Part shown: positions 33,863-59,220 of the stretch, in pieces | Numbering within the stretch: position 1 is the stretch's first letter | Layout of the letters: every line of letters starts with the position of its first letter | Source of the DNA: an uncultured Clostridium sp. | GTDB lineage: Bacteria; Bacillota; Clostridia; Lachnospirales; Lachnospiraceae | Assembly (NCBI GenBank): GCA_945915475.1 | Contig: CAMEFI010000014.1 | Coordinates: forward strand, 1 to 64,000 | DNA: 64,000 nt | Direction of reading: 5' to 3' | Translations under genes and position numbers: made by a program | Notes under the pieces: generated by a model | Told to the model about the DNA's origin: nothing | The model's database searches: none | What the model saw: the letters and a program-made list of their open reading frames with translations, nothing else

Positions 33863-34331
33863 CTTTTCTCTCCTGTAAATAATCTAGAAAACCTCTTAAT
33901 CCACGCTCAATGTCCTCATACGTCCTGTCAAAATCCCCGGTATACCATGGATCCGCAACATCTCTTTTCTCATCTGTAAAATCCAACAACCGATATACCT
34001 TACCATCCTTATCCCTGCCACAGATTCTTGCCACATTTCTCAAATTCATAGAATCCATACAGATCAAATAATCATATTCCTTATAATCATTCTTTGTAAT
34101 CTGCACTGCTCGTTTTCCCTCACAGGAAATACCAAATTCTTTCAGTTTCTTTTTTGTCCCCGGGTGTACCGGATTACCAACGTTACCCCAGATTTCTTCC
34201 GAACTGGTAGCTGCTGAAGCAATTTCAAATTGGTCTGCAATGCCAAGTTTTTTTACCATGTCCCTTAATAAAAATTCCGCCATTGGAGAACGACAGATGT
34301 TGCCGTGGCATATAAATAGTATTTTTATCAT
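33843..34331 (-). CDS. Low-molecular-weight protein-tyrosine phosphatase (5' end supplied by the integrated element)
   Basis: 162 residues. The P-loop CHGNICRSPMAEF near residue 8 and the general-acid Asp in ADPWYTGDFDRTYEDIE near residue 125 are intact. It dephosphorylates protein tyrosine in the cytosol. The first about 11 codons, start and ribosome site (AGAGG) lie on the element side of the attachment core at 34294-34310; a second start peptide MIRVLFVCHGNI is found at 59220. The gene is therefore complete but hybrid, and its expression now depends on element-borne upstream sequence. Confidence 0.92.
   Translation of the reverse strand: MIKILFICHGNICRSPMAEFLLRDMVKKLGIADQFEIASAATSSEEIWGNVGNPVHPGTKKKLKEFGISCEGKRAVQITKNDYKEYDYLICMDSMNLRNVARICGRDKDGKVYRLLDFTDEKRDVADPWYTGDFDRTYEDIERGLRGFLDYLQERKDVSFYR
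34294..34310 (-). repeat. Attachment site attL of element 1
   Basis: CAGATGTTGCCGTGGCA matches CAGATATTGCCGTGGCA at 59183-59199 with one difference; the last 11 bases are identical. Both copies are in the same orientation and both encode the CHGNI residues of the phosphatase P-loop. Confidence 0.85.
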
Positions 34332-34449
34332 ATTTCTTATATCCTCTTATATCTTGTTATATCCTTATATTTCAACGGTTTTAAGACTTTTTTCAATTTT
34401 CTGTTTTTCTCATAACTCTTTATAAATTCTTATAGTTTCTCCGACAATT

Positions 34450-34486
34450 GGTGAAAACTATGGTGAAAACCCAAGAATATTTCACC
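34450..34486. repeat. Left-end arm repeats of element 1 (GGTGAAAAC)
   Basis: GGTGAAAAC at 34450-34458 and 34462-34470, and inverted TTTCACC at 34480-34486, between attL and the integrase stop. The same word recurs at the other end (59108, 59119). Confidence 0.65.
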
Positions 34487-34543
34487 ACTGAAACATCTGC
34501 CGTTTTTCCATAGCAAAATATCTTAAACAATCCTTTGTTCACC

Positions 34544-35791
34544 TCAAAAATTCACAACTTTACTGCCACTTTTTGAAGCTCTTGTTTTGCCCTTGGTTTC
34601 TTTCTTTTTGTTCTTCTTAATATCTTCTTTCACATCCTCAATATCAATGTGAGTATATACATTTAAAGTCACGTTAATATCTGAATGACCCATAAGATAT
34701 TGCAAAGTCTTAGGACTAATACCCGATTTTGCCATATTGGAACAATATGTATGTCTGCATACATGAGGTGTTACTAATGGCATCTGAACTCTGTATATCT
34801 TATTATATTTATCTCTGATATGTTGAAAATACTTTTCCCAATGCATAGCGACCATCGGATTATTGTTTTTATCAAAGAAAAGAAAACCAATCTTACCATC
34901 AATCATAGGCTCCGGTTTCAGTTTAGGACGTTTTTCAATAATTTTACGAAAGCACTCTTCTACTTCTTTGCTCATCGGAAGCTCTCTCACACCAGCATCA
35001 GTCTTAGTATCTACAATGGTATATCTTCCGTTACGTTCTCTTTGTAACTGGTGGTCAACCATAAAAGTATGATTTTGAAAATCAATATCTGAGATTGTCA
35101 ATCCACAAAACTCTGATATTCTGATACCAGTATTGAAAAGAATATAAATACCTTCATAATATCTTGAAAAATGTGCATCTTCTTTAACAAATTTCAAGAA
35201 TTTGCGCTCATTTTCCTTAGACAATGATTCTCTTTTAACCGAATCATTTATGAGGGCATCTGCCAATTCAAATTGAAATGGGTTAGAAACAATCATTTCA
35301 TCTCTGAATGCCATTTCAAATGCTGGACGCAAAACTCCACGCACACTCTGAACTGAACTATATCTATATCCGTCACTCTGCAATTTTATAAGAAATAGTC
35401 TTGCATCCGAATATTTAACATGGTCAATGCGCTTAGCTCCAAATTCTTCTTTGCTTAAAATATTTCTTACTGTCTTATAACCAGCTTTTGTATTGTGGGT
35501 TACATTTACTTTGGTAGCAACATATCTATCTACCAGTTCAAGTACAGTAATCCCATTACTACAAATCCCCTTATCAAGCAATCTCTGAACTTCTTTTTCT
35601 TGTTCCCTTAAAGATGCCTTGTGCTTCTTATTGGGTGGTGTTACATCTGCATTAGTCAAACGCCAACTAGTCAACTCTTTTCTATTCCCTAATGCATCTG
35701 TATATTTAAAAGAATAACTACCATCTTTCTTCTGAATCTCACCTGTTTGCAGTATTCTTCCTTTGTTGTCACGCCTTTTTATATCTCTCAT
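34544..35791 (-). CDS. int: Tn916-like tyrosine integrase of element 1
   Basis: 415 residues. AP2-like N-terminal DNA-binding region (1-70, RRDNKGRILQTGEIQKKDGS), SAM-like core-binding domain, catalytic domain with Arg in FNTGIRISEFCGL, Lys in DTKTDAGVREL, HVCRHTYCSNMAKSG, LMGHSDINVT and nucleophile Tyr in NVYTHID. Homologous along its length to the integrase at 59572. Lysine-rich C-terminal tail. Its 3' end faces attL. RBS AAAGGAG. Confidence 0.95.
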   Translation of the reverse strand: MRDIKRRDNKGRILQTGEIQKKDGSYSFKYTDALGNRKELTSWRLTNADVTPPNKKHKASLREQEKEVQRLLDKGICSNGITVLELVDRYVATKVNVTHNTKAGYKTVRNILSKEEFGAKRIDHVKYSDARLFLIKLQSDGYRYSSVQSVRGVLRPAFEMAFRDEMIVSNPFQFELADALINDSVKRESLSKENERKFLKFVKEDAHFSRYYEGIYILFNTGIRISEFCGLTISDIDFQNHTFMVDHQLQRERNGRYTIVDTKTDAGVRELPMSKEVEECFRKIIEKRPKLKPEPMIDGKIGFLFFDKNNNPMVAMHWEKYFQHIRDKYNKIYRVQMPLVTPHVCRHTYCSNMAKSGISPKTLQYLMGHSDINVTLNVYTHIDIEDVKEDIKKNKKKETKGKTRASKSGSKVVNF

Positions 35792-35899
35792 CTTTATTCT
35801 CCTTTCACGATAAAAAAGAGCCGCGACACAACATATAATGTTAGTATGCCACGACCAAAAAACTCTGTCAATGTACTTTTCCCAACGCTTGCAGCTTTT

Positions 35900-36103
35900 C
35901 TAAATTGCTTCCAAACTATCAATGTATTTCTCAAACAAAGCTCTTTTTATCTGTGCTTTTCTTCCATTCCATAAAATAAACGATGCATTTTTATTTGAAT
36001 TAACCAAATTTCTCAATTTATTCTCCCCAATTCCAAAATATGCAACCGCTTCTTCAATAGATAAGGTGTACTTTTCCCATATAGGAATTGATAAATTAGC
36101 CAT
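35900..36103 (-). CDS. xis: Excisionase (Tn916 Xis-like)
   Basis: 67 residues, MerR/excisionase-type winged [23 protein letters not shown], then [20 protein letters not shown], ending [11 protein letters not shown]. The same pattern is found in the gene at 60978 of element 2. ATG at 36103 is 9 bases after AGGAG. It lies about 100 bases upstream of int in the same direction, as in Tn916. It would direct Int to excision. Confidence 0.92.
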
Positions 36104-36122
36104 TTTTCTCATCTCCTATCGT

Positions 36123-36148
36123 AAAAAGGGCAGCGGGAGCCGCCCTTT
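36123..36148 (-). terminator. Terminator upstream of xis (shared sequence with 57581)
   Basis: AAAGGGCAGCGGGAGCCGCC forms a GGGCGGC/GCTGCCC stem with a T-run on the minus strand. The identical core occurs at 57581 after the serine recombinase gene. Confidence 0.75.
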
Positions 36149-36419
36149 ACTCTTTTCCTACTTGTTTCAACTCATGCGCAAGCAATAATTCCTTGCGTAG
36201 TTCTTCATAGCCTTCTTTTGCTTCTTGTGCTTCTTTTATGCTCTCTCTCCACATTGCTTCTAGCATCTTAAAATTGGCTACTGATAATTGCATTCGTTTA
36301 AGTCCTTTATCATCTGTTTGCTCAACATATCCTACAATTTCTTCAAGTTCTTTAATCCTTTTCTTCAAATTTTCGTTCTCATCACGCAGCATCTCTACTA
36401 TCGCATTCACATTTCCCAT
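36147..36419 (-). CDS. Short coiled-coil protein
   Basis: 90 residues, heptad-rich: NAIVEMLRDENENLKKRIKE then a central VGYVEQTDDKG linker and a second Glu/Lys helix. AGAAAGGA precedes the ATG at 36419. It sits between the tape-measure terminator and the xis terminator, so it forms its own short transcript or read-through. Function unknown. Confidence 0.6.
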   Translation of the reverse strand: MGNVNAIVEMLRDENENLKKRIKELEEIVGYVEQTDDKGLKRMQLSVANFKMLEAMWRESIKEAQEAKEGYEELRKELLLAHELKQVGKE

Positions 36420-36445
36420 AATAAAAATCCTTTCTATATGTAAAA

Positions 36446-36468
36446 GGGCAATGCTCAATGCATCGCCC
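36446..36468 (-). terminator. Terminator after the tape-measure gene
   Basis: GGGCGATGC-ATTGA-GCATTGCCC on the minus strand followed by TTTTA, 10 bases after the stop at 36478. Confidence 0.75.
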
Positions 36469-36477
36469 TAAATATAT

Positions 36478-39400
36478 TTAAAAATTGAATCTATTCTTTT
36501 TATTTACGCTTGTACCTGTAAGTGGCGCTACGGCTATAGCTTGAATAAGTTTCTCAAAATCCTTACTTTTCTTCATTTGATTGAGTAAATCGTCCAAATC
36601 TTCTACATTATCAATATTGATATCAAGGTCAATATTTTGCTCAATATCATTATTGCCACCACTAGAAATAGAAGAGGTGTCAATAGAACCATTACCAAGA
36701 AGATTGTCCATAATAAATGAACCAGGATTGTTAGCCATCTTCCAAATGTTATCAGAAGCTAGTGCATTGTATACACGACTTCCCTTGGAAAGTGTACTTA
36801 ATACAGCATGGTCAGATTTTCTTATAATGGTTTCGCCACCAATCTTATCATAATTTTCATTAGTCCAAGCTAACTCATCACGATTGATTTCTTTAGCACC
36901 ACTCATGTATCCAGAAATCTGGCTCTTTGTAAGCCATCCTAAGTCACCGCTTCCAAGTTTACTTCCGGTACTTATATGGTATGGTTTAGAACCCTTTTTA
37001 TTTATTTTAGTAACATATACAGTCTTTCCTACATTTTTACTTCCTGTAGGTTTACCACCATAAGAATCGCAATAATATTTACCACTCTTAAATGTTACTT
37101 TATCACCAACTTGTATCTTTCCATCGCCTTGGGTTGTAGTTTTCTTAGTAGTAGTTGTTGTGTTTTTCTTTTGTGTGCTTGTACTACTTGTCTTTTTCTC
37201 TTGTCCAGTATTCGATGAAGTAGTTGTTGGCGTTGAACTCGTTGCAGCGGCAGCGGCAGCAGTCTTTGTACTATTTGCAGCGGCTTGAGCAGCAGATTGA
37301 GCAGCGGCAGCAGCACTAGCGGCAGCAGCTTTTTCAGCGTCTACTTGTTGTTTGACAAGTTCAGCCTGGGTATTTGCAGCAGTCAATATAGAGTTGACTG
37401 TATTCTTAATACCATCAAGTGTATTATTTGTAACTGTCTGTTTATTTGAAAAATCTGTACCATACGTTGTTATTACACCAGTGTAATTTGTACCCTGTGT
37501 ATTAAGTGCAGAAATCAAACTATTTGCATTTGTTGTATCTAACTCACCATTTTCTTGCAGTTTACTAATAATATTCAAAGCATTTTGAATTTCTTGTGCG
37601 CTACCAGAACCAAGTGCAGCTAAAATACTATTTGCATTCTCTTGTGAGATAGCTCCATTTGCAACCATTTGATTTATCAGAGCAGTTACATTTGCTAATT
37701 GTTCAGCTCTGCTTTGAGCTAATTCATTAGCAGCATTCGACCAAAGATTTGACATTTCTGTTGTCATTGTATAACCAACAGATGATGCAGCTGCATTTAA
37801 TGTGTCGTTGATAGTAATAGCGCTACCATTGACCATAGCAATCATATCTTCTATAAGTGCATCAATGTTATCAAGTCTTTCATTTAAAATACGCTCATAT
37901 TCAACATACAACTCGTCCAAAAGTTTCTTCTGGTCTGAGATGTACTGTTCATACTGAGTTTCTTCCAAATCGTCTTTTGCTTCTTCAAGGTCTACCTTGA
38001 TTTTTTGGATTTTTGCCTTAGTTTCCTCTGTTACATCATTCTGGTAGGCAGACAATTGTTTTTGCAATGTAGCAATGTTCTTTGTCTGTTTTTCTACCTT
38101 TTTCTGGAAACTGTATAAATCCTTTTGACTATCAAGAGCATCAGTATATTTACCTATAAGCTCTTTTAAGCTACTTAATTCTTTACTAATACCATCACTT
38201 ACAAGGTCTTTGATTGCAGCTTTTTCATCTTCGGCAGCCTGGATACACTGTCTTTGAATAGACAGTAATTCATTTCTCCGGTCAATGAGGGTAGTATTAG
38301 CTGGGTCACTTGCAATTTGTTTATTCAGTGATAGAATTTCGGCAGCATAATCATCAGCTTGTGACATAAGGACATTGTAATTAACTCCATGAAGTCCCAT
38401 TGTTGAAACTCCGGCATCAGTCAATTGTCCATTATCTTCATATAAATTTGAAGAGCTGAGTAAGTCAATTAAGAAATCGCTTTCATCTTTTAACTTAGAA
38501 ATCGTATCTTCTAAGTAATCAAAGTTATCCCACTGGATTTGACGTATTGAATTATCAAGCTCAATCACAGCAAGTTCGGCTTCGTGAATCTGATTTGTAA
38601 CATTGCAAATTTCTTGAGACATTTCATACCAGGCATTTGAGCCATATTCAATCTCTCCACTTGCAACAGCAGAATAAAGGGCATCTGATAATGCCTTTTG
38701 CTCACTCTTCAATGAATCCAAAGTGCTTTCTTGCTGTTCTTTCAGCATTTCATAATACTTACCACTTGCAGCATATCCCATGGCTTCCGCTTTATTAAGC
38801 ATCGTTTGATACTCACTATACAAGGATTCAGCCAAAGACATTTTATTTTCATACTGTTGTGATATGCCATTGAAAATGTTCATGTATTCCTCAGATATTG
38901 CATTTGAATAGCTTATAATATCGCTATTCAAGGAATCAACCTCATTTTCTACAGCTTGTATTGAACCAAGCATTTCATAATATGCTTCTGACCTGTATTC
39001 AATACTACCATTACTAACCGCAGTATCAAGCTCACTTTTTAAGGCTGCCAACTCAGCTGTTTTGATTCCAATTTGTTCTTGAGCATTTTTCACCAATCCT
39101 TGATAATCAGCTATATTAGCGTTGGATGCAGCAGTTGATTTATCCGGTGTCACATAATCACTTGCGTAATCTGAGCGCCTTGAAATCAAACTACTTGTTC
39201 TTTCTGCAATATGTTCTAAATCCTGGACTTTATTTGTCCATTCAGTAACAATATTATCAAATTTTTCCTTGTATAATTCTGATATGGATTCCTGTAAATC
39301 ATCAATCGCATCTTTGCAGTCAAGCGCTGCTTCATACCACTTTTGATACTCTTCTATCTTTTCAGCTGTATCAGAATCATATTCCTTAATATCAATTGTA

Positions 39401-42400
39401 CCATTTTTGACTTTTTTCTTTAAATCCTTAGACAAACCAACAGAATTTGCTTCTTTCATATATCTGTCATATGCTTTTTTCTGTAAAGATATCTCACTGG
39501 TAATTTTTGATATTTCTTTTGTAATCGCACTGTTACGCTTAGCAAAAGTTTTGTAAACATTCTTTACAGTCTTGTCAAGATTGTTGATAGCTCTTTCTGC
39601 ACGACTTATAGCAACTTCAATCCAGTTTTTGGTTTGCTTATCATCCTTTTTATCGGATGAATTGCTATTTTTCCCAGACTTATCTCCACCACCAGATACT
39701 CCACCAACATTAACTTTACCACCTTTGTAAAAAGTGCCGGAACCACTACTAAAGGCTGTTCCTTCTGCTAATGCTTTTCCTCTGCCATTTATTTTGCCCT
39801 TGGATAGTATTTCTTGGGTCTGTCTTGCATTAAAGATAATGTCATTCTTTTTATATTTGAAAAACTCAGCGCCACTATCGCCTATTGTAAAATAACGACC
39901 ATCTCTTACAACTAGCTCTTGACCAAGTTCACCGCCTAAAGCAGTACCATTATCTTTTGTTCCCCAAGTTCCTCTTGAAAATGCTGTACCTTTTGCATGG
40001 GCTGTACCTGTCGCATTGGAATTACCTGTTACCTTTTTGGTGTAAACAATTGTTCCATATAGCGTAGGGACTGTCCAATTGTTCAATTTGGGCTGATATT
40101 TAACCACACCTTCTTTAACTGGAACATCGTAGTCCTTTACCGCTTTATCATCTACAATATAGGTAACTGTACTTTCCTTGTCTTGTGGTTCATATCCTTC
40201 AATAAGCGATGCATCAACTCCCGCCTTAACCATAATATCAGCGTCAATACCAGCAATGGTTGACTGTATTGTATTAAGGGCAGTCGTATCAAGGTTTACA
40301 CCTGCCTTAACATCAATATTGGTTGACGTTAATGTTTCAAGCGCTGACTGAAATTCACTATCATCTAAACCTAGTGACGTTTTTACCGAATCCGGCATAT
40401 CATTGATGCTCTGTAATACTGTTTGAATATTAGTTTGGGCTTCTGTGGTATCAGCTCCAACAGCAGTTTCTATTTCAATGTCGTTGTAATTGGTCTGGAA
40501 GTCTTGTAATAATCCAATTACAGAACCAATATCACTTGCTGCCTGTGTGGTATCTACATTCATGACAGCTGGCGCATTTAATGATTGCTTCTGTGCAATC
40601 AATGCTACTAATACGGTTTGTGCTTCCTCTGCGCCCTCGATAGTGAGGTCTACTGACCCATCACTATTCCTAAATTGATTTAATATCTCTTGAGCTTGTC
40701 CTATCTGCTCAGTAATTGTATTGATATTGGTTGAATCAAAATAAAACTGTATATCTGTTTTTCCTAGCTCTTTGAGCTTTTCATTTGCTGATTCCGCATC
40801 CGTTTCCAGAAGCCCAAGCGAAGTATACATTGAATCCAGGTTAATATCATATCCATACGCTGACATTGCCCTTAAAAGAATCTGCACTTCCTCGGTTGAC
40901 ATCTGCAAATCAGTCATTTCATTTATGGCTTTTGCAAGTGCTTCATCACCACCAACGCCAAAATCAAAAGTATAATTTCCGTTTTCGTCTAGCTGTACCC
41001 ATGTTTGACCAAGTTCGTCACTCACAGATTTTGCAGTATTCAAAAATTCTATCAAACCATCTTGATTTCCGGTGAAGAATTTTTGCATTGTGGCGTAACC
41101 TTTATCATAAACACCCATCAATTCTTCAACGGATGCAGTCGATAAATCGGTATCTGACATAAGTTGTACTGCTTCTCGGAAGTCATCAACTCCAATTCTT
41201 CCAGATTCATATAATTCCTTGATATCTTCCAACCCTTTTGATAATGTTGTAAACATATCATCTTCGTCTGGTGTAGACTGAGCTTCTTCCCACTTATGAA
41301 ATGCGGAGGTTAATCCTTCGTATTGAGCAGCCAAAGTAGAAACATCTTCTATCTGGTCTGCTATATCATCACGTTGCTTATATAAATCAGCCAACTCAGC
41401 AGCATCACTACAAGTATTGATTTTTTCAGTCACATCATTGTATTGGTCTGCTAACTTCTGCAACTCATTTTTGAAGTCTTGATTCTTGGCGTTTTCATAT
41501 TCTTTTTCAAGCTCACGTAACGCTTGTACATTCAAATGAATTCCGTTGGTTGTTTTCTCAAATAATTTGCTTGCATCATATCCTTCCAAATCAGAATACA
41601 TTGCTTTAATGGCATTTATGCCTTGTGTACTTAATCCGGTTGATGATACAGATTCCTCAATAGCTGAATACAGATTATCCATATGTGATACTTCTGCATC
41701 AATGCTAAAAGTAAAACCATCACTGGCAGTATCATATAGTTTAAGCATTTCATCACGCAAAGTTCGTAATGCATCTGCTCCGGCGCTATCTTCTCCAAGT
41801 GCTTGAATTTGTGCATCAAATACACCCAACATGCTTGCTGCATCATCAGAACTTCCAATAATGGATTTCATTGTAGATTCAATTCCGTTGCCTAAATCAT
41901 CAGCATAATTTGTCAGTTCCGGGAATTGTTTCATTAGCTCTACAATTTGCGAATCAGTCAGCGAACCATTGTTGAAGTCATCCAACGCATCCTTCAATGT
42001 ATCAAGGGTATCTGTGTAATTAGATATGGTATCAGAAAAATTATTTTCGCTATCGTCAAGTAATAAATCATAAAATGATTGTAAAGAATCCTCAGCTTCC
42101 TTTAATCCCGAAGAGTAATATTCAAGTTGCTCTTGCCAGTCCGTAATATTCCAACCAGTAGTATCATTCTCTACACTAATCTTATATATGATTTCTTTTT
42201 CGCTGTCATCTAGTCCATTTAACCAGGTAACAAGATTTGTATACTCAATATCAGCTAATGTAAATGATTGTGCATCGTCATATACCTTTGCAAAAGCATC
42301 CTTTATTTTGGTTACTTTATCCTCAAGTGTATCTACTGAATCCTCGGAAAATTTCTTTGACCAAGCATTATAATAAGCCGAGAAAGAATCCAATGATGCC

Positions 42401-44994
42401 ATGTAATTATTCACATACTCTTCTATATCTGAATTATCAATATCACCATTTTCCATAGCGTATTTTATTCTATCGCTTTCTGAAATGGTATCAATCAAAG
42501 TCTGTCTGTACTGTTCGTAAGAATCAGCAGAATCAACAACCAATCCATTAAGTTTATCGTTGTATTTCTCTTCTGACGCAACTGTACTAAGTAATGTTTC
42601 AGCAGCTTCTTTTTGCTTTTGTGTGATTTCATCATAAGCTGATATTTGGCTACTAATTGCCGAATACATCTTGCTTGAAGAATAATCCTCATAGTTCTTC
42701 TCTATGTACTCCAACATACCACGCAAATATTCCGCTTTTTCTTCGGCATTCTCTAGCTTCTTCATATCATTGTCGTACTCGTCCATTACAAACAATGTAT
42801 TACCAAAGAAACCTCCAGACTGCACATTATTACCATATCCACCATCTTTTAATATTTTTTCAAGCTCTTTTTCCCTTTTTCCGGTATATACGTAATCATT
42901 TACAAATAAAAATGAATCACTGGCAATAGCTGTGTCTGATTCTTCGACTGCTGCCTTATAATTTCCTACAGCTTTTTCAGCTGCTTTCTGAGCTTCTTTC
43001 TTTTCTATCTCATTAAGTTTTGCAAGCTCTTCATCCAGCTTACCATTTACAAGGTCAAGATTATCCGCTTGTGAACCTACCAAGTCTGTGATTTGACTTT
43101 GTATATCTCTTATTTCTGCACGCGTTCCAGAATCTTGATTATCACTTTTTGCTAATTCCTTATATTTGTCAATCAGCTCATCAAGTGTTTTCACTTCCTC
43201 AGCTGCTTCTTGAGCTTCTTCCCTCATCGAATCTGCCATTTCCTTGGCTGATTCAGCAGCTTCTTTCTGCATATCTGCAAGTTTACCAATAGCAACAACC
43301 GCCGCTGCAACACCTGTTGCAATCAATACAAGCGGATTAGCCATCAAGGTAGCCCACAATCCTTTAAAGGCACCAGACAAAGTAACTGTAGTTGTTGTTG
43401 CTGCGCCTTCTGCTGTCGCAAGTCCCATGGATGCAAGTGTGGCTTCTGCTTGTGCTGTTGTCATTCCCTGGGTTGTCAATATTGCAATTCTCTGTTCTGT
43501 GGATAATGCTTCACTGGAAAGAACCGCTTTTAGCTGACTTTGTGATAAATTAGCTGTCATAGCTGCTAACTGCTCAATCTCTTGTGTTCCAAGATTACCC
43601 ATGCTAATCAAACTGAGCGCATTGTTAAACTCAGTTAATTTTGTAGCGGCATCCATAACACCTGTTGTTATTGCAGAAAACGCTTTTACAACTCCAACAG
43701 TTGCTAATCCAGCAAGCGCACCTTGTAACAAATTGGTATCATCCACAAATTCCAATACCGCTGTACCAGCATCAATGATATCTCCAACCATTTCAGTAGA
43801 AATTGTGTTGGTTGCTAATGATTCAAAAGCAGCTTGTAAACTCTTTGTCTTTGCTTCGATAGAATCAAGGTATGCACTAAACTTCTGTTCAGCTGTTCCA
43901 GCCGAATTTGCTGCAACTTCCATGTATGAGCTTGCCTGCTCATAATTTGCCATTAAAACTCTGAAATTCTCTTGCTGTCTTGTTCCGGCAAAAGCCTTTG
44001 ATATTGCTGCCTGTTGAACACTTGAATAGTTATTCCAATTGGCTGCAACTTCATCAAGTACATCTCCAAAATTCCTAAATTCATTATCCGAAGAACGTAA
44101 TGCAATACCAAGATTATTCAATACAGTTTCAACATCTGACAAAGTTTCGGTTGTTCCATCTTCGTCTATATACTCAAGCGCACCAGCTTTAATATTTGAC
44201 ATTCTTGTAAAAATAGTTTTGTAACTCTCACCAATAGAGGACATTGATTTTTGAGTAACCTCACCTGTTACCGCCAAATATCCAAGCAGTTTATCCATGC
44301 TAACACCTGCATCATTGGCTGTATTAGCAACTCTGGACATAGCTTCTGCAAGTCCTCCGGCATCTGTAGCTGATACTAAGTCAACAGCTGTCAATTTATC
44401 TACAATCTTTGACACATCCTCAGCAGCTACCTTATATCCCTTCATGGCACTTGTAAGATATTTAGTAGAATCCGCGCTATCAAGCTGTGCAACCTTACTT
44501 AATACCATTGAATCCCGGATTAAAATGTTGGTATCCTTTATCGAATTACCTTGACGCAACCACGCATTAGCACTGTTTGAAACCTCTGTTGTCGTTGCTC
44601 CAATATTCTTTCCCAATGCGTTATATCCACGAACCAAAGCGGCTGTATCTTCATAACTGCCATTTGTTGCCATTCGTAGATTTTTAATCGCAGTATCGAA
44701 TCCCCCAACCGCTTCAACAGCGTCTTTCGCAGCATTCTCTATCAGTTGGAAACCTTTAGCGGTGACAGTTGCAGCAGCACCAATTCTAAGCGATTTTTTC
44801 ATTGTGTCGCCCAAAGTATTTGCTTGCTTAGCAGTATTCCGCATAGAGTTATTGATTTGGTTCAATCCTTGCTGCGTACCACTTGTTTCCAGGTCAATCT
44901 TCATCCTATGTTGATTGCCTGTCACTTGTCTCATTTGTTGCTCGAATTTGGAAGTGTCTAATTCTGCTCGTATTTTCGCTGTAAACTCACTCAT
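36478..44994 (-). CDS. Giant phage-type tail tape-measure protein
   Basis: 2838 residues. Residues about 75-400 match the phage tail tape-measure core: a TAKGFQLIENAAKDAVEAV start, MATNGSYEDTAALVRGYNAL, VAQLDSADSTKYLTSAMKGY and GESYKTIFTRMSNI. A hydrophobic stretch lies at about 545-575 (ANPLVLIATGVAAAVVAIG). Long alpha-helical and coiled-coil regions follow. GGELGQELVVRDGRYFTIG near 1695 is common in tape measures. An Ala/Thr/Lys low-complexity stretch (about 2555-2620) precedes an SH3-like domain (about 2625-2690). In siphophages such proteins set tail length. No frameshift is seen. ATG follows GGAGGTAGTTT. No other confident tail gene is present. Confidence 0.9.
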   Translation of the reverse strand: MSEFTAKIRAELDTSKFEQQMRQVTGNQHRMKIDLETSGTQQGLNQINNSMRNTAKQANTLGDTMKKSLRIGAAATVTAKGFQLIENAAKDAVEAVGGFDTAIKNLRMATNGSYEDTAALVRGYNALGKNIGATTTEVSNSANAWLRQGNSIKDTNILIRDSMVLSKVAQLDSADSTKYLTSAMKGYKVAAEDVSKIVDKLTAVDLVSATDAGGLAEAMSRVANTANDAGVSMDKLLGYLAVTGEVTQKSMSSIGESYKTIFTRMSNIKAGALEYIDEDGTTETLSDVETVLNNLGIALRSSDNEFRNFGDVLDEVAANWNNYSSVQQAAISKAFAGTRQQENFRVLMANYEQASSYMEVAANSAGTAEQKFSAYLDSIEAKTKSLQAAFESLATNTISTEMVGDIIDAGTAVLEFVDDTNLLQGALAGLATVGVVKAFSAITTGVMDAATKLTEFNNALSLISMGNLGTQEIEQLAAMTANLSQSQLKAVLSSEALSTEQRIAILTTQGMTTAQAEATLASMGLATAEGAATTTTVTLSGAFKGLWATLMANPLVLIATGVAAAVVAIGKLADMQKEAAESAKEMADSMREEAQEAAEEVKTLDELIDKYKELAKSDNQDSGTRAEIRDIQSQITDLVGSQADNLDLVNGKLDEELAKLNEIEKKEAQKAAEKAVGNYKAAVEESDTAIASDSFLFVNDYVYTGKREKELEKILKDGGYGNNVQSGGFFGNTLFVMDEYDNDMKKLENAEEKAEYLRGMLEYIEKNYEDYSSSKMYSAISSQISAYDEITQKQKEAAETLLSTVASEEKYNDKLNGLVVDSADSYEQYRQTLIDTISESDRIKYAMENGDIDNSDIEEYVNNYMASLDSFSAYYNAWSKKFSEDSVDTLEDKVTKIKDAFAKVYDDAQSFTLADIEYTNLVTWLNGLDDSEKEIIYKISVENDTTGWNITDWQEQLEYYSSGLKEAEDSLQSFYDLLLDDSENNFSDTISNYTDTLDTLKDALDDFNNGSLTDSQIVELMKQFPELTNYADDLGNGIESTMKSIIGSSDDAASMLGVFDAQIQALGEDSAGADALRTLRDEMLKLYDTASDGFTFSIDAEVSHMDNLYSAIEESVSSTGLSTQGINAIKAMYSDLEGYDASKLFEKTTNGIHLNVQALRELEKEYENAKNQDFKNELQKLADQYNDVTEKINTCSDAAELADLYKQRDDIADQIEDVSTLAAQYEGLTSAFHKWEEAQSTPDEDDMFTTLSKGLEDIKELYESGRIGVDDFREAVQLMSDTDLSTASVEELMGVYDKGYATMQKFFTGNQDGLIEFLNTAKSVSDELGQTWVQLDENGNYTFDFGVGGDEALAKAINEMTDLQMSTEEVQILLRAMSAYGYDINLDSMYTSLGLLETDAESANEKLKELGKTDIQFYFDSTNINTITEQIGQAQEILNQFRNSDGSVDLTIEGAEEAQTVLVALIAQKQSLNAPAVMNVDTTQAASDIGSVIGLLQDFQTNYNDIEIETAVGADTTEAQTNIQTVLQSINDMPDSVKTSLGLDDSEFQSALETLTSTNIDVKAGVNLDTTALNTIQSTIAGIDADIMVKAGVDASLIEGYEPQDKESTVTYIVDDKAVKDYDVPVKEGVVKYQPKLNNWTVPTLYGTIVYTKKVTGNSNATGTAHAKGTAFSRGTWGTKDNGTALGGELGQELVVRDGRYFTIGDSGAEFFKYKKNDIIFNARQTQEILSKGKINGRGKALAEGTAFSSGSGTFYKGGKVNVGGVSGGGDKSGKNSNSSDKKDDKQTKNWIEVAISRAERAINNLDKTVKNVYKTFAKRNSAITKEISKITSEISLQKKAYDRYMKEANSVGLSKDLKKKVKNGTIDIKEYDSDTAEKIEEYQKWYEAALDCKDAIDDLQESISELYKEKFDNIVTEWTNKVQDLEHIAERTSSLISRRSDYASDYVTPDKSTAASNANIADYQGLVKNAQEQIGIKTAELAALKSELDTAVSNGSIEYRSEAYYEMLGSIQAVENEVDSLNSDIISYSNAISEEYMNIFNGISQQYENKMSLAESLYSEYQTMLNKAEAMGYAASGKYYEMLKEQQESTLDSLKSEQKALSDALYSAVASGEIEYGSNAWYEMSQEICNVTNQIHEAELAVIELDNSIRQIQWDNFDYLEDTISKLKDESDFLIDLLSSSNLYEDNGQLTDAGVSTMGLHGVNYNVLMSQADDYAAEILSLNKQIASDPANTTLIDRRNELLSIQRQCIQAAEDEKAAIKDLVSDGISKELSSLKELIGKYTDALDSQKDLYSFQKKVEKQTKNIATLQKQLSAYQNDVTEETKAKIQKIKVDLEEAKDDLEETQYEQYISDQKKLLDELYVEYERILNERLDNIDALIEDMIAMVNGSAITINDTLNAAASSVGYTMTTEMSNLWSNAANELAQSRAEQLANVTALINQMVANGAISQENANSILAALGSGSAQEIQNALNIISKLQENGELDTTNANSLISALNTQGTNYTGVITTYGTDFSNKQTVTNNTLDGIKNTVNSILTAANTQAELVKQQVDAEKAAAASAAAAAQSAAQAAANSTKTAAAAAATSSTPTTTSSNTGQEKKTSSTSTQKKNTTTTTKKTTTQGDGKIQVGDKVTFKSGKYYCDSYGGKPTGSKNVGKTVYVTKINKKGSKPYHISTGSKLGSGDLGWLTKSQISGYMSGAKEINRDELAWTNENYDKIGGETIIRKSDHAVLSTLSKGSRVYNALASDNIWKMANNPGSFIMDNLLGNGSIDTSSISSGGNNDIEQNIDLDINIDNVEDLDDLLNQMKKSKDFEKLIQAIAVAPLTGTSVNKKNRFNF

Positions 44995-52349: not shown

Positions 52350-52352
52350 CTT

Positions 52353-53493: not shown

Positions 53494-53499
53494 ATTTTC

Positions 53500-53802: not shown

Positions 53803-53819
53803 ATTCTTACCTACCTTTA

Positions 53820-53941: not shown

Positions 53942-54349
53942 CTATGCAAGTGCATATTCTGTAAACTCTTCCATCAATCCGGCGCTTTCTATCTTCTTTA
54001 ACAAATAATTCATATTGAATTCAAGCCCTTCAATATAGCTTTCTGGGAATTCCATACCGATAGCTTTATTGTATCTGTCCATTGCTGCGACTGCTGCCGG
54101 ATATACTTCATCTTCTACAATCAACCTTGCAAAACAGGCTTTTAATAACTCAGTAACCACATCTAAAGCAGCAGAATTGATATTGTACCATTCATGAATG
54201 ATTAAATTATCTTTCTTGCAGTCGTATGTTACATTGATGGGCTTCTGTCCGTTGATTCTGATTTTTGCTGTGTATATTTCAAATACTGTTCCTGTGTGCT
54301 TCTCTACATTATCCAAAATCAAAGTGTTATTTACGATTATTCTTTTCAT
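53942..54349 (-). CDS. Hypothetical element protein, paralogue of the 54366 product
   Basis: 135 residues. The segment INGQKPINVTYDCKKDNLII then HEWYNI matches GKPLNITFDYFGNTLLI then HEWWMI in the next gene, so both share a domain. Helical C-terminus. GAAGGGAG lies upstream of the ATG at 54349. Sixteen bases after the 54366 gene, in the same leftward operon. Function unknown. Confidence 0.6.
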   Translation of the reverse strand: MKRIIVNNTLILDNVEKHTGTVFEIYTAKIRINGQKPINVTYDCKKDNLIIHEWYNINSAALDVVTELLKACFARLIVEDEVYPAAVAAMDRYNKAIGMEFPESYIEGLEFNMNYLLKKIESAGLMEEFTEYALA

Positions 54350-54365
54350 GGTCTTTTTCTCCCTT

Positions 54366-54779
54366 CTATGCTGTGATACTCTCAAAATACTTTGTTACAA
54401 TGTCTGTTACTGTTTCTCTTGTTTCCGGTTCTATCATCCACCATTCATGAATCAAAAGAGTGTTGCCGAAATAATCAAAAGTAATATTCAATGGTTTACC
54501 ACAACCAATCATCAATTTACCTGTGCAGATATGGCTTGATTGGCTCATGTATTCTTTTACTTTTCCAACTGCTACGCCATCAGCAACTTTGACCAGCTTA
54601 CCAGCTCTTTTTCTTTCTGTTGCTTTTATTGGTGTAATCATAAAACCATCTTCACTATAAATAACATAATCTGCATTGCATCCGCTTTTCTCTTCTCTGT
54701 CAATATAGCTTCTTGCTGTCAATGCGCTTTCACATGCTACAAGCTGGTTAGCACCATCACAAACTATAAATGTACTCAT
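54366..54779 (-). CDS. Hypothetical element protein, paralogue of the 53942 product
   Basis: 137 residues. N-terminal half (STFIVCDGANQLVACESALT) is unique; the C-terminal half carries the shared LNITFDYFGNTLLIHEWW domain. GGAGAAGAAAGAA precedes the ATG at 54779. Belongs to the leftward operon starting at 55525. No known family. Confidence 0.6.
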   Translation of the reverse strand: MSTFIVCDGANQLVACESALTARSYIDREEKSGCNADYVIYSEDGFMITPIKATERKRAGKLVKVADGVAVGKVKEYMSQSSHICTGKLMIGCGKPLNITFDYFGNTLLIHEWWMIEPETRETVTDIVTKYFESITA

Positions 54780-54828
54780 TTCTTTCTTCTCCAATCTCCC
54801 CGATATGCCAGATAGGACAGCAAAATAA

Positions 54829-55173
54829 TTATAAAAGGTTCTTAATACTGTTTCTTAAGTCATCAAGCTGCATCCTGGTTTGCTCTCGTTCTCTTCTCGC
54901 CTTGTTAAGTGCATCGTATAACTCAGCTTCCCTTTGCTCGCTCTGCTTCTGTGCTGTTGCTAGCTGGGTTTCAAGTTCTTCAATTCTTCTAACACGCATC
55001 CTTGAAAGTCTTTGAATACCGCCGTTGCGCTTCCAGTCTTTACAGAACTTTACTTTGTCGATATCACAACCCATATACTCAGCTTCTATATCTTGATATT
55101 CTGCTTGTGTAGGTTCAAAGCCTGTCAACTCTATAAATTCACTTATCATCATATCAATACACCATCCTTTCAT
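54829..55173 (-). CDS. Coiled-coil element protein (114 aa)
   Basis: 114 residues. Residues 1-50 form a small domain (ISEFIELTGFEPTQAEYQDI, then YMGCDIDKVKFCKDW), the rest a long coiled coil (RIEELETQLATAQKQSEQRE). GGAGGTAGTCAACAA fixes the start at 55173. Part of the leftward operon. Function unknown. Confidence 0.6.
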   Translation of the reverse strand: MKGWCIDMMISEFIELTGFEPTQAEYQDIEAEYMGCDIDKVKFCKDWKRNGGIQRLSRMRVRRIEELETQLATAQKQSEQREAELYDALNKARREREQTRMQLDDLRNSIKNLL

Positions 55174-55246
55174 TTGTTGACTACCTCCCACCCTTCCGGA
55201 TGGGAACGCTTGCAGCCTAAAGCCCTGTTTTAAGTCGCTGCAACGA

Positions 55247-55525
55247 CTACTTGACATATAACCTTCTGTATTGGCTGATTCTCTGGTATTCTGCCAGGCT
55301 TCCGAGGTCTGCTTCAAGTCGCTTACTGTCTAATGTTCTACGCTCGCAAGTGCTAACTTTTACGGTGAAGTCTGCGCCTGTCTCGCTCTGCTTTTCGTTG
55401 TTATCCAAATAGGAAAGAATTTCTCTTTCTGCATCCTTGAGCTGTTCTTCAAGCTCTTCTTTCATTGCCTTTAAACTTCTGTAATCTGCTACTACCTTTT
55501 CTAATTCATTCATTGTCATACACAT
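55247..55525 (-). CDS. Gp5.5/Hpr-like coiled-coil element protein, putative
   Basis: 92 residues. VVADYRSLKAMKEELEEQLK is a coiled coil, followed by a beta-rich end (TVKVSTCERRTLDSKRLEAD) that resembles small phage nuclease-inhibitor or recombination accessory proteins, only by layout. GGAGG precedes ATG at 55525. First gene of the leftward operon, with its promoter carrying the operator at 55720. Confidence 0.5.
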   Translation of the reverse strand: MCMTMNELEKVVADYRSLKAMKEELEEQLKDAEREILSYLDNNEKQSETGADFTVKVSTCERRTLDSKRLEADLGSLAEYQRISQYRRLYVK

Positions 55526-55715
55526 AACTTTGTACCTCCATTTTTTATTTTCTCTTATATTGGAGCTTTAGCGACAGCAGGCTTTAAACATCTAGTCACT
55601 TTCCTGGACTTCTCAATCTCTCTTATCCTGTTTCCTGTTCTTACCTTGCGTTCTTGGTTTCAACTTGCGTTTACTTTCGTCCGCCTTGGCTTTGCTCTTG
55701 TTTGATTGTGATTTC

Positions 55716-55842
55716 ATTATACACGATATTTCGTGTACTGTCTATTGACAGATTGCACAAATATACACCTTTATTCGTGATTATTTTTATGCACTTTTTT
55801 TCGTGTATATCTATTGATTATACACCTTTATTCGTGTATAAT
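55716..55842. promoter_or_regulatory. Divergent promoters, each with an 18-bp operator in the spacer
   Basis: Leftward: TAGACA (minus, 55744-55739), 17-base spacer, TATAAT (55721-55716), with TACACGATATTTCGTGTA (55720-55737) in the spacer. Rightward (ardC): TTGATT (55814-55819), 17-base spacer, TATAAT (55837-55842), with TACACCTTTATTCGTGTA (55821-55838) in the spacer. A third copy, TACACCTTTATTCGTGA, lies at 55764-55780, and a half-site TCGTGTA at 55801-55807. Region 55526-55880 contains no gene. Confidence 0.8.
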
Positions 55843-55880
55843 CATATTAGAAACAAACAAAGAAAGAGAGGTAAACGCTT

Positions 55881-56720
55881 ATGAGTACAAATGTATATCA
55901 ATTAGTAACAGACAGAATAATTGAAGAATTACAAAAGGGTAATATCCCATGGGAAAAACCATGGACAGGCGTTAGAAGCGGCGCATTTAATAGAATAAGT
56001 AAAAAGCCTTATTCCTTATTAAATCAAATGCTTTTAAAGCATGAAGGCGAATATGCAACATTTAAACAGTGGTCGGAGCTGGGCGGGAAAATCCGCAAGG
56101 GCGAAAAGTGTGAAATCGTTGTTTTCTGGAAGATATTCGAAAAGGAAGAAATCAACGACAAAGGCGAAAAAGAAAAGGTTACTATCCCATTATTAAAATA
56201 TATCAATGTGTTTCATATTTCCCAGGTTGAAGGCGTTGAACCTCTGAAACAACCATTTAACGAGGTTACACCGATAGAAGAAGCCGACAAAATAATAATT
56301 GACTATGTAACACGCGAACATATCACTTTTGAAGAAAAAGCAAGCGACAAAGCATTTTACAGCCCTTCAAGGGATTGTGTGGTTGTACCAATGAAAGAAC
56401 AGTATAAACACATTAACGAATACTATTCAACAACATTTCACGAGCTGACCCACTCAACCGGACACCCTTCAAGGCTTGACAGATTAAAAACCGGAGCTGT
56501 TGCAGCTTTTGGAAGTGAAACATATAGCAAGGAAGAACTTGTTGCAGAAATCGGAAGCGCTACTATTTTAAATACTTTAGGGATTGAGACAGCGAAAACC
56601 TTTAGAAACAGCGCCGCATATATTCAAAACTGGTTACATGTTTTACAGAATGACAACAAGTTTATTGTTTCGGCTGCATCCAAAGCAGAAAAGGCGGTTG
56701 CTTATATCTTAGGTGAATAA
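55881..56720 (+). CDS. ardC: ArdC-like antirestriction protein (ssDNA-binding plus zincin)
   Basis: 279 residues. N-terminal ArdC ssDNA-binding domain (VYQLVTDRIIEELQKGNIPWEKPW, KPYSLLNQMLL, KGEKCEIVVFW), C-terminal metallopeptidase-like domain with HELTHSTGH near residue 192 and a following Glu in KEELVAEIG. Typical of conjugative plasmids and mobile elements, where it protects incoming DNA. AGAGAGGTAAACGCTT precedes the ATG, and the promoter is under the recurring operator. Confidence 0.92.
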   Translation: MSTNVYQLVTDRIIEELQKGNIPWEKPWTGVRSGAFNRISKKPYSLLNQMLLKHEGEYATFKQWSELGGKIRKGEKCEIVVFWKIFEKEEINDKGEKEKVTIPLLKYINVFHISQVEGVEPLKQPFNEVTPIEEADKIIIDYVTREHITFEEKASDKAFYSPSRDCVVVPMKEQYKHINEYYSTTFHELTHSTGHPSRLDRLKTGAVAAFGSETYSKEELVAEIGSATILNTLGIETAKTFRNSAAYIQNWLHVLQNDNKFIVSAASKAEKAVAYILGE

Positions 56721-56724
56721 TTAC

Positions 56725-56748
56725 AAGGGCGGTAAAAAATCCGCCCTT
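56725..56748 (+). terminator. Terminator of ardC
   Basis: AAGGGCGG-TAAAAAAT-CCGCCCTT stem followed by AAAAC; the T-run is weak on the plus strand. Confidence 0.6.
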
Positions 56749-56868
56749 AAAACTGTATTAAAACAAAGGTTATTAAAAATGTACCAAAAGTAAAAGCATA
56801 TTCCACAAAGAACACTGTACAAAAATTAAGGGTCGTTTGATGTGGTACTATTTAGGGAGGTTGAAAGC

Positions 56869-57561
56869 ATGAGTATATACGGATATGCAAGAATCAGTAC
56901 AAACAGGCAAAGCATAGAAAGACAGATACGCAATATAAGAAGCGTATACCCAAAAGCAATTATATATCAAGAAGTTTTCACAGGTACAAAAACAACAGGT
57001 CGTAAAAAGTGGATGCAATTATTAAAGGTTGTAAAACCCGGCGATACTATTGTTTTCGACTCAGTATCACGAATGAGCAGAAACGCCGAGGAAGGCATAC
57101 AAACATATTTTGAACTATACGAAAAGGGCGTAAACCTTGTATTTTTGAAAGAAGGATATATTAACACCGATGTATATAATACAGCCATACAGCAAAGCAT
57201 CTCGGAAACCGGAAACGAAATAGCAGATATTTACATTGAAGCTACAAACAAGGTTATTAAATTACTTGCTATACAACAGATAAAAAAGGCATTTGAACAG
57301 GCACAAAAGGAAGTTGATGACCTACACCAGCGAACAAAGGAAGGAATGGAAACAGCACGCCTACAGGGTAAACAGATAGGACAGACACCAGGCGCAAAAC
57401 TCACGACAAAGAAAAGCATCCGGGCAAAGGAAGAAATCCAGAAATTTTCTAAAGACTTTCAAGGCACATTAAAAGACGTTGACGTTATCCGGATGATAGG
57501 AATATCAAGGAATTCCTACTATAAATACAAGCGGGAACTCCTGGAAGAATCCGAACTGTAA
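56869..57561 (+). CDS. Serine recombinase (resolvase/invertase family)
   Basis: 230 residues. Catalytic Ser in YGYARISTNRQSIERQI (residue 9 or so), Arg pair in FDSVSRMSRNAEEG, long E helix, and a C-terminal HTH (FQGTLKDVDVIRMIGISRNSYYKY). Full-length resolvase/invertase type, not a large serine integrase. Could resolve dimers or invert DNA in the element; no inverted target pair was found nearby. AGGGAGGTTGAAAGC precedes the ATG. Confidence 0.92.
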   Translation: MSIYGYARISTNRQSIERQIRNIRSVYPKAIIYQEVFTGTKTTGRKKWMQLLKVVKPGDTIVFDSVSRMSRNAEEGIQTYFELYEKGVNLVFLKEGYINTDVYNTAIQQSISETGNEIADIYIEATNKVIKLLAIQQIKKAFEQAQKEVDDLHQRTKEGMETARLQGKQIGQTPGAKLTTKKSIRAKEEIQKFSKDFQGTLKDVDVIRMIGISRNSYYKYKRELLEESEL

Positions 57562-57824
57562 AACATTATAAGAGTATCGCAAAGGGCAGCGGGAGCCGCC
57601 CTTTTTCTTTTGTCCTTGGCTGCTATAGTGGGGCGTGGTTTACATTTCAAATTATCGTTGATTTTCTCCAACACCCCCTATGTGATGTTTTTCACTCTGA
57701 CCCCTCTTCAATTCCACCCATGCAATACTTTATAATCAAATCTGTTTACTTTTAAATCTATGCAAATTTTCTATGATATAATTAAGAATACGCATAAAAT
57801 TGAATACGAAAGAAGGTATGTCAT
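57562..57824 (+). other. Terminator and leader before the exported-protein genes
   Basis: 57581-57606 is a terminator with the same core as 36125 (AAAGGGCAGCGGGAGCCGCC then CTTTTTC). The rest is a C-rich then AT-rich leader; TATAAT at 57730 or TATAATTA at 57777 may be the -10 of the downstream pair. AGAAGG at 57811-57816 is the ribosome site. Confidence 0.5.
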
Positions 57825-58331
57825 ATTAACGATAAAGAAGAAAAGAATAAGCGCAAAAATTCTCTTGTGGTTATTCTGCTATGTCTGATTATGGTTATTG
57901 CTGGCACAATTGCCGGAATCTTTCTTGCACCACTATTACATAAAGATAAAGGCGACAACTATGATAAAAACGCCGTTGATATCGTGCAGCAGTCAGATGA
58001 TAGCCAATCTCAAGAATTTGCTGATAATATTGCTATTCCTTGTTGGGATTCCTTAACTATGAAAGCAAATGAGCTTGAGCAAACTGTCAATTTCTATAAT
58101 CCGGCAGCCAATAAGGGAATCAATTTCAAACTGACATTATCCTTAGATGATGGTACAAAGTTATATCAATCTGACCTCATACCGTGTGGAAAAGCCATTT
58201 ATAATATCACTTTGGATTCAGCCTTGGAACCTGGTACATATAACGCTATCTTGGATTATGAATGTACTACAACGGATGGTGGACAGCTCAACGGCTCATC
58301 TATGAGCTTCACAATAGAAATGGAGGAATAA
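57825..58331 (+). CDS. Membrane-anchored exported protein (Ig-like), start altered
   Basis: About 168 residues if read from AUU at 57825: a Lys/Glu-rich cytosolic start, one membrane segment (VVILLCLIMVIAGTIAGIFLA), then an exported beta-rich domain (IAIPCWDSLTMKANELEQTV, VNFYNPAANKGINFKL) ending with two further cysteines. An ATG at 57818 with correct ribosome spacing is in another frame and stops after three codons; removing one T would join it in frame. GTG at 57867 would lose the basic start. Similar proteins pair with a secreted partner, as here. Confidence 0.65.
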   Translation: MNDKEEKNKRKNSLVVILLCLIMVIAGTIAGIFLAPLLHKDKGDNYDKNAVDIVQQSDDSQSQEFADNIAIPCWDSLTMKANELEQTVNFYNPAANKGINFKLTLSLDDGTKLYQSDLIPCGKAIYNITLDSALEPGTYNAILDYECTTTDGGQLNGSSMSFTIEMEE

Positions 58332-58336
58332 AACCT

Positions 58337-58912
58337 ATGAAAACACAAAAGCATTTAAAATTGTATATTGCCCTCTTCTGCTTATCAATGCTTATTTCTG
58401 CAAGTGTCGCAGTCGTACACGCTGATTCAACACAAACAACAACTCTTACCTATACAATTCCATCAATATCTTATGAAGTGAATATTCCTGCAACATTATC
58501 ACTCAATGATACATCTACATTAAATTTCAGCTTAACACCAGAAAGCCAACTTAATGACTGTTATGCTGTCCTTGTTCAAGTTGACCAGACAAGTTTTAGT
58601 GTCACTTCATCAGACAAAGAAACCGGAGATAAATACCCATACATTATACTGTACGAAAATGGAGTATCTGGCAGCAGTTACAAACGTGCTTATACCTTAA
58701 CAAATTATGAGGGCAAATCTCTATATACATACGAAACCAAAACAAACGGATATGACATTGCAGCTAGATTATATGACCCAAATAGTCAATCATACTCTTC
58801 TGAGGGTGGTATAACTTTTAACTATGTACCAGGACATTCAAGAATGTCATCTGATACAAGCATTACATACTCTGGAAAAATTAAATTCAAAATTTCTGGA
58901 TATTACTATTAA
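58337..58912 (+). CDS. Secreted beta-rich surface protein
   Basis: 191 residues with a signal peptide (KTQKHLKLYIALFCLSMLIS, cleavage near AVVHA-DS). The mature part is Thr/Ser/Tyr rich and predicted beta (TLTYTIPSISYEVNIPATLS), similar in style to small exported adhesin or pilin-like proteins in Clostridia mobile elements. No sortase motif. AATGGAGGAATAAAACCT precedes the ATG, 5 bases after the previous stop. The pair is probably the element's surface cargo. Confidence 0.7.
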   Translation: MKTQKHLKLYIALFCLSMLISASVAVVHADSTQTTTLTYTIPSISYEVNIPATLSLNDTSTLNFSLTPESQLNDCYAVLVQVDQTSFSVTSSDKETGDKYPYIILYENGVSGSSYKRAYTLTNYEGKSLYTYETKTNGYDIAARLYDPNSQSYSSEGGITFNYVPGHSRMSSDTSITYSGKIKFKISGYYY

Positions 58913-58962
58913 AGTAACCGGGGGCTATGGTTTACATTGAAAATCTCAAAGCGTAAAAAAAT

Positions 58963-58989
58963 GAGGGTAGCTGTCAGTTAGCTGCCCTC
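58963..58989 (+). terminator. Terminator after the exported-protein pair
   Basis: GAGGGTAGCT-GTCAGTT-AGCTGCCCTC followed by TTCT. A second hairpin ACCATCATT/AATGATGGT follows at about 59007-59041. Confidence 0.75.
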
Positions 58990-59107
58990 TTCTATTATGA
59001 GTACATGAATAAAACCATCATTCTTACACTAATAAATGATGGTCTTATGCATATATTCATTTCTTATTTTCATATGTTGTGTCCCTTAGAGATTTTGAAA
59101 ATTGAAT

Positions 59108-59127
59108 GGTGAAAAGTTGGTGAAAAC
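59108..59127. repeat. Right-end arm repeats of element 1 (GGTGAAAA)
   Basis: GGTGAAAA at 59108-59115 and GGTGAAAAC at 59119-59127, matching the words next to attL. About 60 bases inside the right attachment core. Confidence 0.65.
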
Positions 59128-59181
59128 TCTCTTTTAAAAAGTCATTTAAAGCCCGTAATTTGAGGATTTTTAGTCAGACAA

Positions 59182-59220
59182 TCAGATATTGCCGTGGCAA
59201 ACAAAAAGCACTCTAATCAT
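59182..59220 (-). pseudogene. Displaced start of the phosphatase gene (12 codons) at attR
   Basis: ATG at 59220 reads MIRVLFVCHGNI and stops (TGA) as it enters element 1. AAAGGAG lies upstream. It is homologous to residues 1-12 of the phosphatase at 33843 (MIKILFICHGNI). The attachment repeat is 59183-59199. It belonged either to the chromosome or to the left end of element 2. Confidence 0.85.

Follow-up and report, generated by a model that had tools for sequence, protein, structure and literature searches.

We analysed a 64,000-nucleotide stretch of the genome of an uncultured Clostridium sp. of the Lachnospiraceae (G000:C14:1-64000, hereafter the window), in which a gene for a low-molecular-weight tyrosine phosphatase (PTP) adjoins two mobile elements in tandem. 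Our reading, to which we assign a probability of about 0.92, is that PTP is an integration hotspot, and that Tn916-type elements insert in its P-loop codons, each resupplying the start of the gene. A Tn916-type clade of tyrosine integrases would recombine at TGCCACGGC(A), the catalytic Cys-His-Gly(-Asn) codons of the P-loop. Beside its integrase, each element would carry a decoy start of the gene, comprising a ribosome site, a start codon and ~10 codons up to the core. Integration would replace the resident beginning with that of the element, making the open reading frame (ORF) whole again, and the displaced beginning would be left at the far junction as a stub soon ending in a stop. Later arrivals would reuse the site and thereby build tandem arrays, of which the window would hold two members and a second contig of the same genome, C48, two more junctions. 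The structure of the loci, the breakpoints, the swap and the conservation of the supplied codons are directly observed in the sequences compared below.

The window contains two copies of the attachment core TTGCCGTGGCA and no more, one at 34300-34310 and one at 59189-59199, each on the plus strand, in agreement with the first-pass annotation; shuffled sequences contain 0.02 copies per window (mean of 100 shuffles). Read on the minus strand, both copies are TGCCACGGCAA, the Cys-His-Gly-Asn codons of the PTP P-loop, and both are in frame with a PTP start, as had been claimed. The left core forms codons 8-11 (CHGN) of an intact 162-aa PTP gene (33843-34331, minus strand; Pfam LMWPc, E=1.3e-35; best solved-structure match YfkJ 4etm, 4e-31), which places the insertion within the 5' coding part of a conserved gene. 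At the right core, the minus strand carries ATG ATT AGA GTG CTT TTT GTT upstream and reads MIRVLFVCHGNI and then TGA, with an Ile codon between core and stop, so that this copy lies in a stub. Of the 10 copies of the 11-mer throughout the genome, none except the window pair is preceded by a PTP start in translated context. A single PTP body was detected in the genome; the hybrid gene is therefore the only copy found. Its first ~10 codons come from element 1 and the remainder is chromosomal, the crossover lying inside TGCCACGGC(A). The supplied codons MIKILFI occupy 34311-34331 and a Shine-Dalgarno (SD)-like AGAGGATA from element 1 lies at 34340-34347 (both minus strand); that such codons are supplied is seen on other elements, in the swap pairs described below. 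The hybrid gene is presumably translated and active.

Element 1 (34300-59199) is a phage-derived, core-bounded element of 24.9 kb with GGTGAAAA repeats at both ends. Two repeats start at 34450 and 34462 on the left (34450-34469, plus strand, with a GGTGAAA copy on the minus strand at 34480) and two at 59108 and 59119 on the right (59108-59126, plus strand). From the matching cores and the GGTGAAAA pairs we conclude that the two window cores mark the limits of element 1, and the paired repeats would correspond to the arm sites of a Tn916-type module. This assignment agrees with the Pfam domains Integrase_DNA PF02920, Phage_integrase PF00589 and Tn916-Xis PF09035, which are present in both elements. 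In element 1 they belong to an integrase of 415 aa (34544-35791) and an excisionase (35900-36112), both encoded on the minus strand by the gene start. The elements are presumably still mobile.

Pairs of loci that share one side of the core and differ on the other reveal the exchange of the 5' end. Faecalicatena faecalis (L081) and an uncultured Lachnospiraceae (L114) are 99.5% identical over 5089 nt ending just past the core, and beyond it their PTP bodies share 49% amino-acid identity. Likewise, the 150-nt leaders of L027/L071 and L053/L060 are 95% and 93% identical, with PTP bodies at 58% and 57%. L033/L034 show the reverse pattern, in which the PTP body is 99% identical and the upstream 150 nt 38%. 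Taken with the SD tetramers and conserved codons discussed below, the swap pairs indicate that the element supplies the start codon, the ribosome-binding site (RBS) and the N-terminal codons. In the sister genomes G110 and G175, the chromosomal 5' flank is 98.9% identical up to TGCCACGGC and the PTP body with its 3' flank is 97-99% identical, and the element ends abutting the core differ. Among 22 stubs, the position following TGCCACGGCA or its variant holds G in 16 cases, A in 5 (the right end of element 1 being one of them) and C in 1, compared with A in intact genes; the G175 stub diverges one base earlier than the others. These divergence points place the crossover within TGCCACGGC(A). Repeated 7-mers were common to 6 of 11 presumed element pairs (E1, E2/C48, G002, G067, G031 and G172). 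Integrase adjacency, swap pairs, sister genomes, arm repeats and the C48 cores thus all support the earlier proposal that related elements sit in tandem inside the P-loop codons and that each supplies a start, an RBS and the first codons.

The origin of the displaced beginnings is less simple. The flank side of the G110 attR was considered as native and set aside, as its last ~180 nt resemble the leaders of a second integrase subclade, and the start there could be of native or older-element origin. The far-end leaders of G110, G149 and C48 all resemble leaders of this second subclade, and hence many of these genomes may lack a truly native PTP start. Beyond the far stubs of G002 and G110, no clade integrase was found in 8.3 and 7.6 kb, respectively. 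G011 was tried as an empty site for G002 and rejected, since the gene side is common to the two and the flank is not. As a separate observation, L043, L064, L065, L068 and the attR of G110 and G149 share a conserved leader of ~180 nt ahead of PTP or stubs. This leader contains inverted TTAGTAGTAAA/TTTACTACTAA repeats and represents either arm sites used by another subclade or a control region of native origin. In L162 (G026:C29), two PTP starts are separated by 156 nt; the first runs into a stop and the second begins a full gene, perhaps a collapsed array.

The supplied codons are conserved. Among 49 collected element 5' ends, the ATG lies exactly seven codons before the cysteine in 43, with 40 distinct 21-mers. 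The 26 nonredundant 5' ends encode the residues MI[KR][IV]LF[IV] with few exceptions, and their changes from the consensus are 50 synonymous versus 38 nonsynonymous, giving a dN/dS-like ratio of 0.22. Entropy by codon position is 0.66, 0.20 and 1.10 bits, compared with 1.45 in the leader. An SD-like tetramer is present in 26/26 nonredundant leaders (shuffle mean 6.2, maximum 13). By these measures, the supplied piece is kept as coding sequence.

Transcription of the hybrid gene presumably starts from the element, possibly as read-through of the integrase operon. This raises the question of whether the element also takes over the function of the gene, such that PTP would be the last gene of the xis-int transcript, its level would follow element induction, and excision would return it to the chromosomal promoter. 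In favour of this, PTP or a stub lies behind int in the same orientation across 44 gaps of 137-529 nt, 38/44 gaps have no terminator-like site, and the supplied leaders have an RBS and no excess of promoters. Nevertheless, the terminator-like sites in the remaining 6 gaps are commoner than in shuffles (mean 0.5, maximum 2; antisense 8), weak or other promoter types may be present in the leaders, and restoration of the gene by itself accounts for the pattern. We therefore consider a functional take-over unlikely, and slightly more doubtful still its extension to the family, according to which, in a large share of the Lachnospiraceae, a housekeeping PTP would be commanded by the last element to capture its 5' end, induction raising and excision resetting PTP. 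Element 2 carries a promoter-like TTGAAA-16-GATAAT (59248-59275, minus strand; 10/12 match) 28 nt before its PTP start, a kind of site that is neither general nor enriched across the elements. The first-pass annotation had also coupled the phosphatase to a lipid kinase, which holds at the window locus and not in general, the window's own being the only case among 95 loci with sufficient downstream sequence.

Integration with resupply of the gene start is further reflected in what lies to the right of element 1. The core at 59189-59199 (minus strand) is at once the right end of element 1 and the left end of element 2, which carries the orphan PTP start MIRVLFV-CHGNI-stop (59189-59220) with its Shine-Dalgarno AAGGAGT (59230-59236), both on the minus strand. 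These are followed by six left arm-type repeats GGTCTAAA (59362-59562) and, on the minus strand, by a Tn916-type integrase of 422 aa (int2, 59572-60840), a Tn916-Xis-type excisionase (60978-61325) and an endolysin (62994-64000) that runs on beyond the window; these protein assignments for integrase and excisionase are from Pfam. Contig C14 ends at 74618, inside element 2, and the genes up to that point encode endolysin, holin, tail and tape-measure proteins. The integrases of the two elements are 56% identical, and the homologous integrase/excisionase pair noted to the right of attR is thus confirmed. That element 2 used the same site is also upheld by its own PTP start, its arms and the C48 core; its supposedly earlier arrival is a matter of order that the sequence cannot decide.

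A third core followed by a phosphatase start, which the first-pass annotation had anticipated further right, is present on C48. A degenerate PTP-start pattern applied to the whole genome returned the two window starts and C48:7117-7148 on the minus strand, where the last base of the core is G instead of A; the reversed control returned none. By inspection, a fourth core with its own PTP start lies near 10650 on C48. The 8-base GGTCTAAA occurs 6 times in the window, always within 59362-59562, and C48 has two further copies, at 7036 and 7047, immediately inward of its core. This shared motif links C48 to element 2; the contig most likely holds the right end of element 2 and then a third and a fourth element. 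Left of the core, C48 has phage-type exonuclease, single-strand binding, DNA polymerase and ParB-like genes, and integrase remnants are found at 9124-10005 and 12509-12798. The cores at C14:34300, C14:59189, C48 ~7117 and C48 ~10650 separate successive elements, as in tandem arrays built by accretion, and such arrays also occur in G031, G149 and G130. The window alone would be compatible with a simpler account, in which element 1 is the sole insertion, the start at 59220 is native and element 2 is chromosomal or unrelated DNA. However, element 2 has its own integrase and excisionase and phage lysis and tail genes, and its GGTCTAAA left arm matches the right arm beside a C48 core with a PTP start; we regard this account as very improbable. 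Apart from this question, the C48 integrase ORF (L121 9091-10408) is fused to unrelated sequence, and by eye its opposite strand resembles a restriction specificity subunit, which suggests an element-internal rearrangement.

The association of integrase and PTP extends across the family. We surveyed 150 genomes, one per genus, with thresholds of E<=1e-20 for PTP and E<=1e-60 for relatives of int2, and found a PTP gene in 121/150 and an int2 relative in 54/150. In 35/121 PTP-bearing genomes, a same-strand clade integrase lies 5' of PTP at a distance of no more than 1 kb. Viewed from the integrases, PTP lies within 4 kb 3' on the same strand in 39/78 rows, and the nearest PTP lies in any other arrangement within 4 kb in 0/78. 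Grouped by identity to int2, PTP is adjacent (within 1 kb) in 29/39 rows at 60% or more, 3/7 at 55-60%, 3/20 at 45-55% and 0/12 below 45%. Ten rows with at least 55% identity have no PTP inside 4 kb. In four of these (element 2, G130, G132 and G031) an orphan PTP start lies at ~210-375 nt, and in three (G160, C48 and G149) at ~1.7-2.0 kb; for the other three, no PTP start is in the available stretch (G167, at a contig end, G086 and G149:113801).

A second cohort comprised the best 80 of 583 PTP relatives, picked irrespective of integrases. Upstream sequence of at least 1.5 kb was available for 59 loci, of which 17 have a clade integrase within 700 nt and 4 more within 5 kb, and at E<=1e-20 none was found downstream of PTP in 66 loci. 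In the genus of the window, 6/14 loci with at least 1.5 kb upstream have a near clade integrase. A quick tree of 67 integrases has one side of 59 rows that contains every row with a PTP start (38 near, 6 stubs and 4 far), together with 8 rows without a PTP start and 3 cut off; the PTP label requires 10 changes, compared with 22.0 in shuffles. Some tree labels are wrong because of short loci and a strict pattern (L183 is PTP-adjacent and L188 has PTP 2.0 kb away), and for that reason we do not claim a single origin of PTP targeting. In the phages PV036456 and PV036417/PV036440, whose integrases are 54-60% identical, no PTP start occurs within 3 kb on either side. Judged by these genomic neighbourhoods, the integrase clade appears largely tied to one target gene. 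The conserved P-loop codons do offer a short homology through which PTP starts might have entered mobile DNA passively, by chance and without site-specific recombination, yet such assembly is the least credible account, given the fixed position and orientation of the integrase, the breakage of independent pairs at the same short core, the paired arm repeats and the near-restriction of the clade to the PTP target.

Several points weigh against integration at the P-loop as set out here. A comparison with related genomes for a matched empty site, as had been suggested, did not turn one up, and G110 and G175 both look occupied. In G175, flank (C12) and gene (C78) are on separate contigs, the insert being deduced from its two ends; similarly, the contiguity of C14 and C48 is presumed. 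The arm test fails for E3, G110, G029, G130 and G043, and 39/494 other pairings also score in it; GGTGAAAA itself recurs in the window at 3239, 39087 and 63232, outside the arms of element 1. In the second cohort, 38/59 loci have no clade integrase in the upstream sequence examined, and at 1e-5 L059 has a single weak integrase match (2.6e-8), situated 4.2 kb downstream from PTP on the opposite strand. Part of the codon conservation could come from the sequence requirements of the integrase. Sigma-70-like promoters show no clear enrichment, at least 9/12 positions being matched in 4/31 leaders versus 3.8 expected (antisense 4) and at least 10/12 in 2/31 versus 0.5 expected, a count reached by 20/300 resamples. 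Finally, the viral contigs L134 and L136, both of which carry stubs, were rejected as attP of free phages, their left and right arms being unlike, and are taken as element-element junctions. For its part, L134 (IMGVR_UViG_3300028048_002163) has an integrase 92% identical to int2, a PTP-start stub and arm repeats that differ per side.

The cargo at the site is diverse. We collected 12 core-to-core intervals (10 elements) with 73 ORFs and scanned 57/73 plus one more element 1 protein (58 in total), leaving out the tape-measure protein, most integrases and small ORFs. Among the matches listed (25 of 209 for PADLOC and 25 of 51 Pfam families) are Type IIG, II and I restriction, AbiEi, HEC-05, PDC-S28 and GmrSD, as well as MobA/MobL relaxase, ArdC and VapE. 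G003 encodes JetA, B, C and D (Wadjet) homologues immediately before PTP. The PTP site is thus shared by prophages, defence genes and elements that carry a mobilization gene. We also note that JetA-D (Wadjet) homologues lie directly 5' of PTP in a genome of the same genus (L123 38-6526), where the 6.7 kb examined upstream contain no clade integrase.

The elements resemble the Tn916 family in their Integrase_DNA and Phage_integrase domains and Tn916-Xis. Tn916 itself chooses its targets loosely, whereas the integrase clade of the PTP site is largely tied to one gene. As a class, the mechanism is already known from SXT/prfC and dusA islands. According to PMC8409611, dusA elements (IMEVchUSA3) insert in the 5' part of dusA and supply new 5' coding sequence with an altered N-terminus, and expression of dusA after integration was demonstrated by a lacZ fusion. 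To that extent the two systems are alike: in each, a conserved gene is entered within its 5' part and receives new 5' coding sequence. They differ in that the first ~35 residues are changed and a new promoter has been demonstrated for dusA, whereas the PTP leaders show no promoter excess; the hosts are also different, and the PTP crossover falls in catalytic codons. SXT/R391 integrative and conjugative elements (ICEs) insert at the 5' end of prfC and supply a promoter and N-terminus, according to PMC4344509 and PMC8409611. They are one ICE family of Gammaproteobacteria, whereas prophages, mobilizable islands and defence genes of the Lachnospiraceae share the PTP site and stack at it. Genomic islands that insert in protein genes and reconstitute them are described in PMC12884075; the PTP elements are like these TIGER or regulated gene integrity islands in that the target protein gene is reconstituted by the island. 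In the open-licence PMC literature searched, we found no report of the P-loop of PTP as a target, of a Tn916-type clade largely dedicated to it, of how prevalent that clade is or of stacked fossil-start arrays.

The site is thus a docking site for mobile elements, occupied in 35/121 sampled PTP-bearing genera of the family, at which element and host share one ORF through its catalytic cysteine. It is a place to look for defence genes, its stubs let past insertions be read from one genome, and the short crossover window of the integrase clade could become a tool in gut anaerobes. If the elements did command PTP, the phosphatase would serve phages and defence islands as a signalling output, and in each array the captured gene starts would be preserved in order, like fossils.

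Within element 1, the other annotated genes include a tail tape-measure protein of 2838 aa (36478-44994, minus strand; PHROGs and Pfam PhageMin_Tail) and, by Pfam on the plus strand, an ArdC-type antirestriction protein (55881-56720) and a serine resolvase domain protein (56842-57561). Seven proteins of the element were scanned against PHROGs, yielding one tape-measure, one HNH and one RecE-like match, the others being of function-unknown families or unmatched. Apart from the tape-measure protein, no structural gene was found among these seven, and element 1 may be a deleted prophage or a satellite. The element also contains a Pistol self-cleaving ribozyme at 55179-55248 on the minus strand (Rfam RF02679, 61.3 bits against a gathering threshold of 34.5). 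The PTP locus of a sequence titled Bacteroidales (L041, JAMPFJ010000013.1) is identical to that of the same-genus G010:C4, and its title or binning is probably wrong. Elsewhere in the window, a distant tyrosine integrase (10519-11481, 25% identity to int2) lies near tRNA-Thr (11788-11862), a possible further island.

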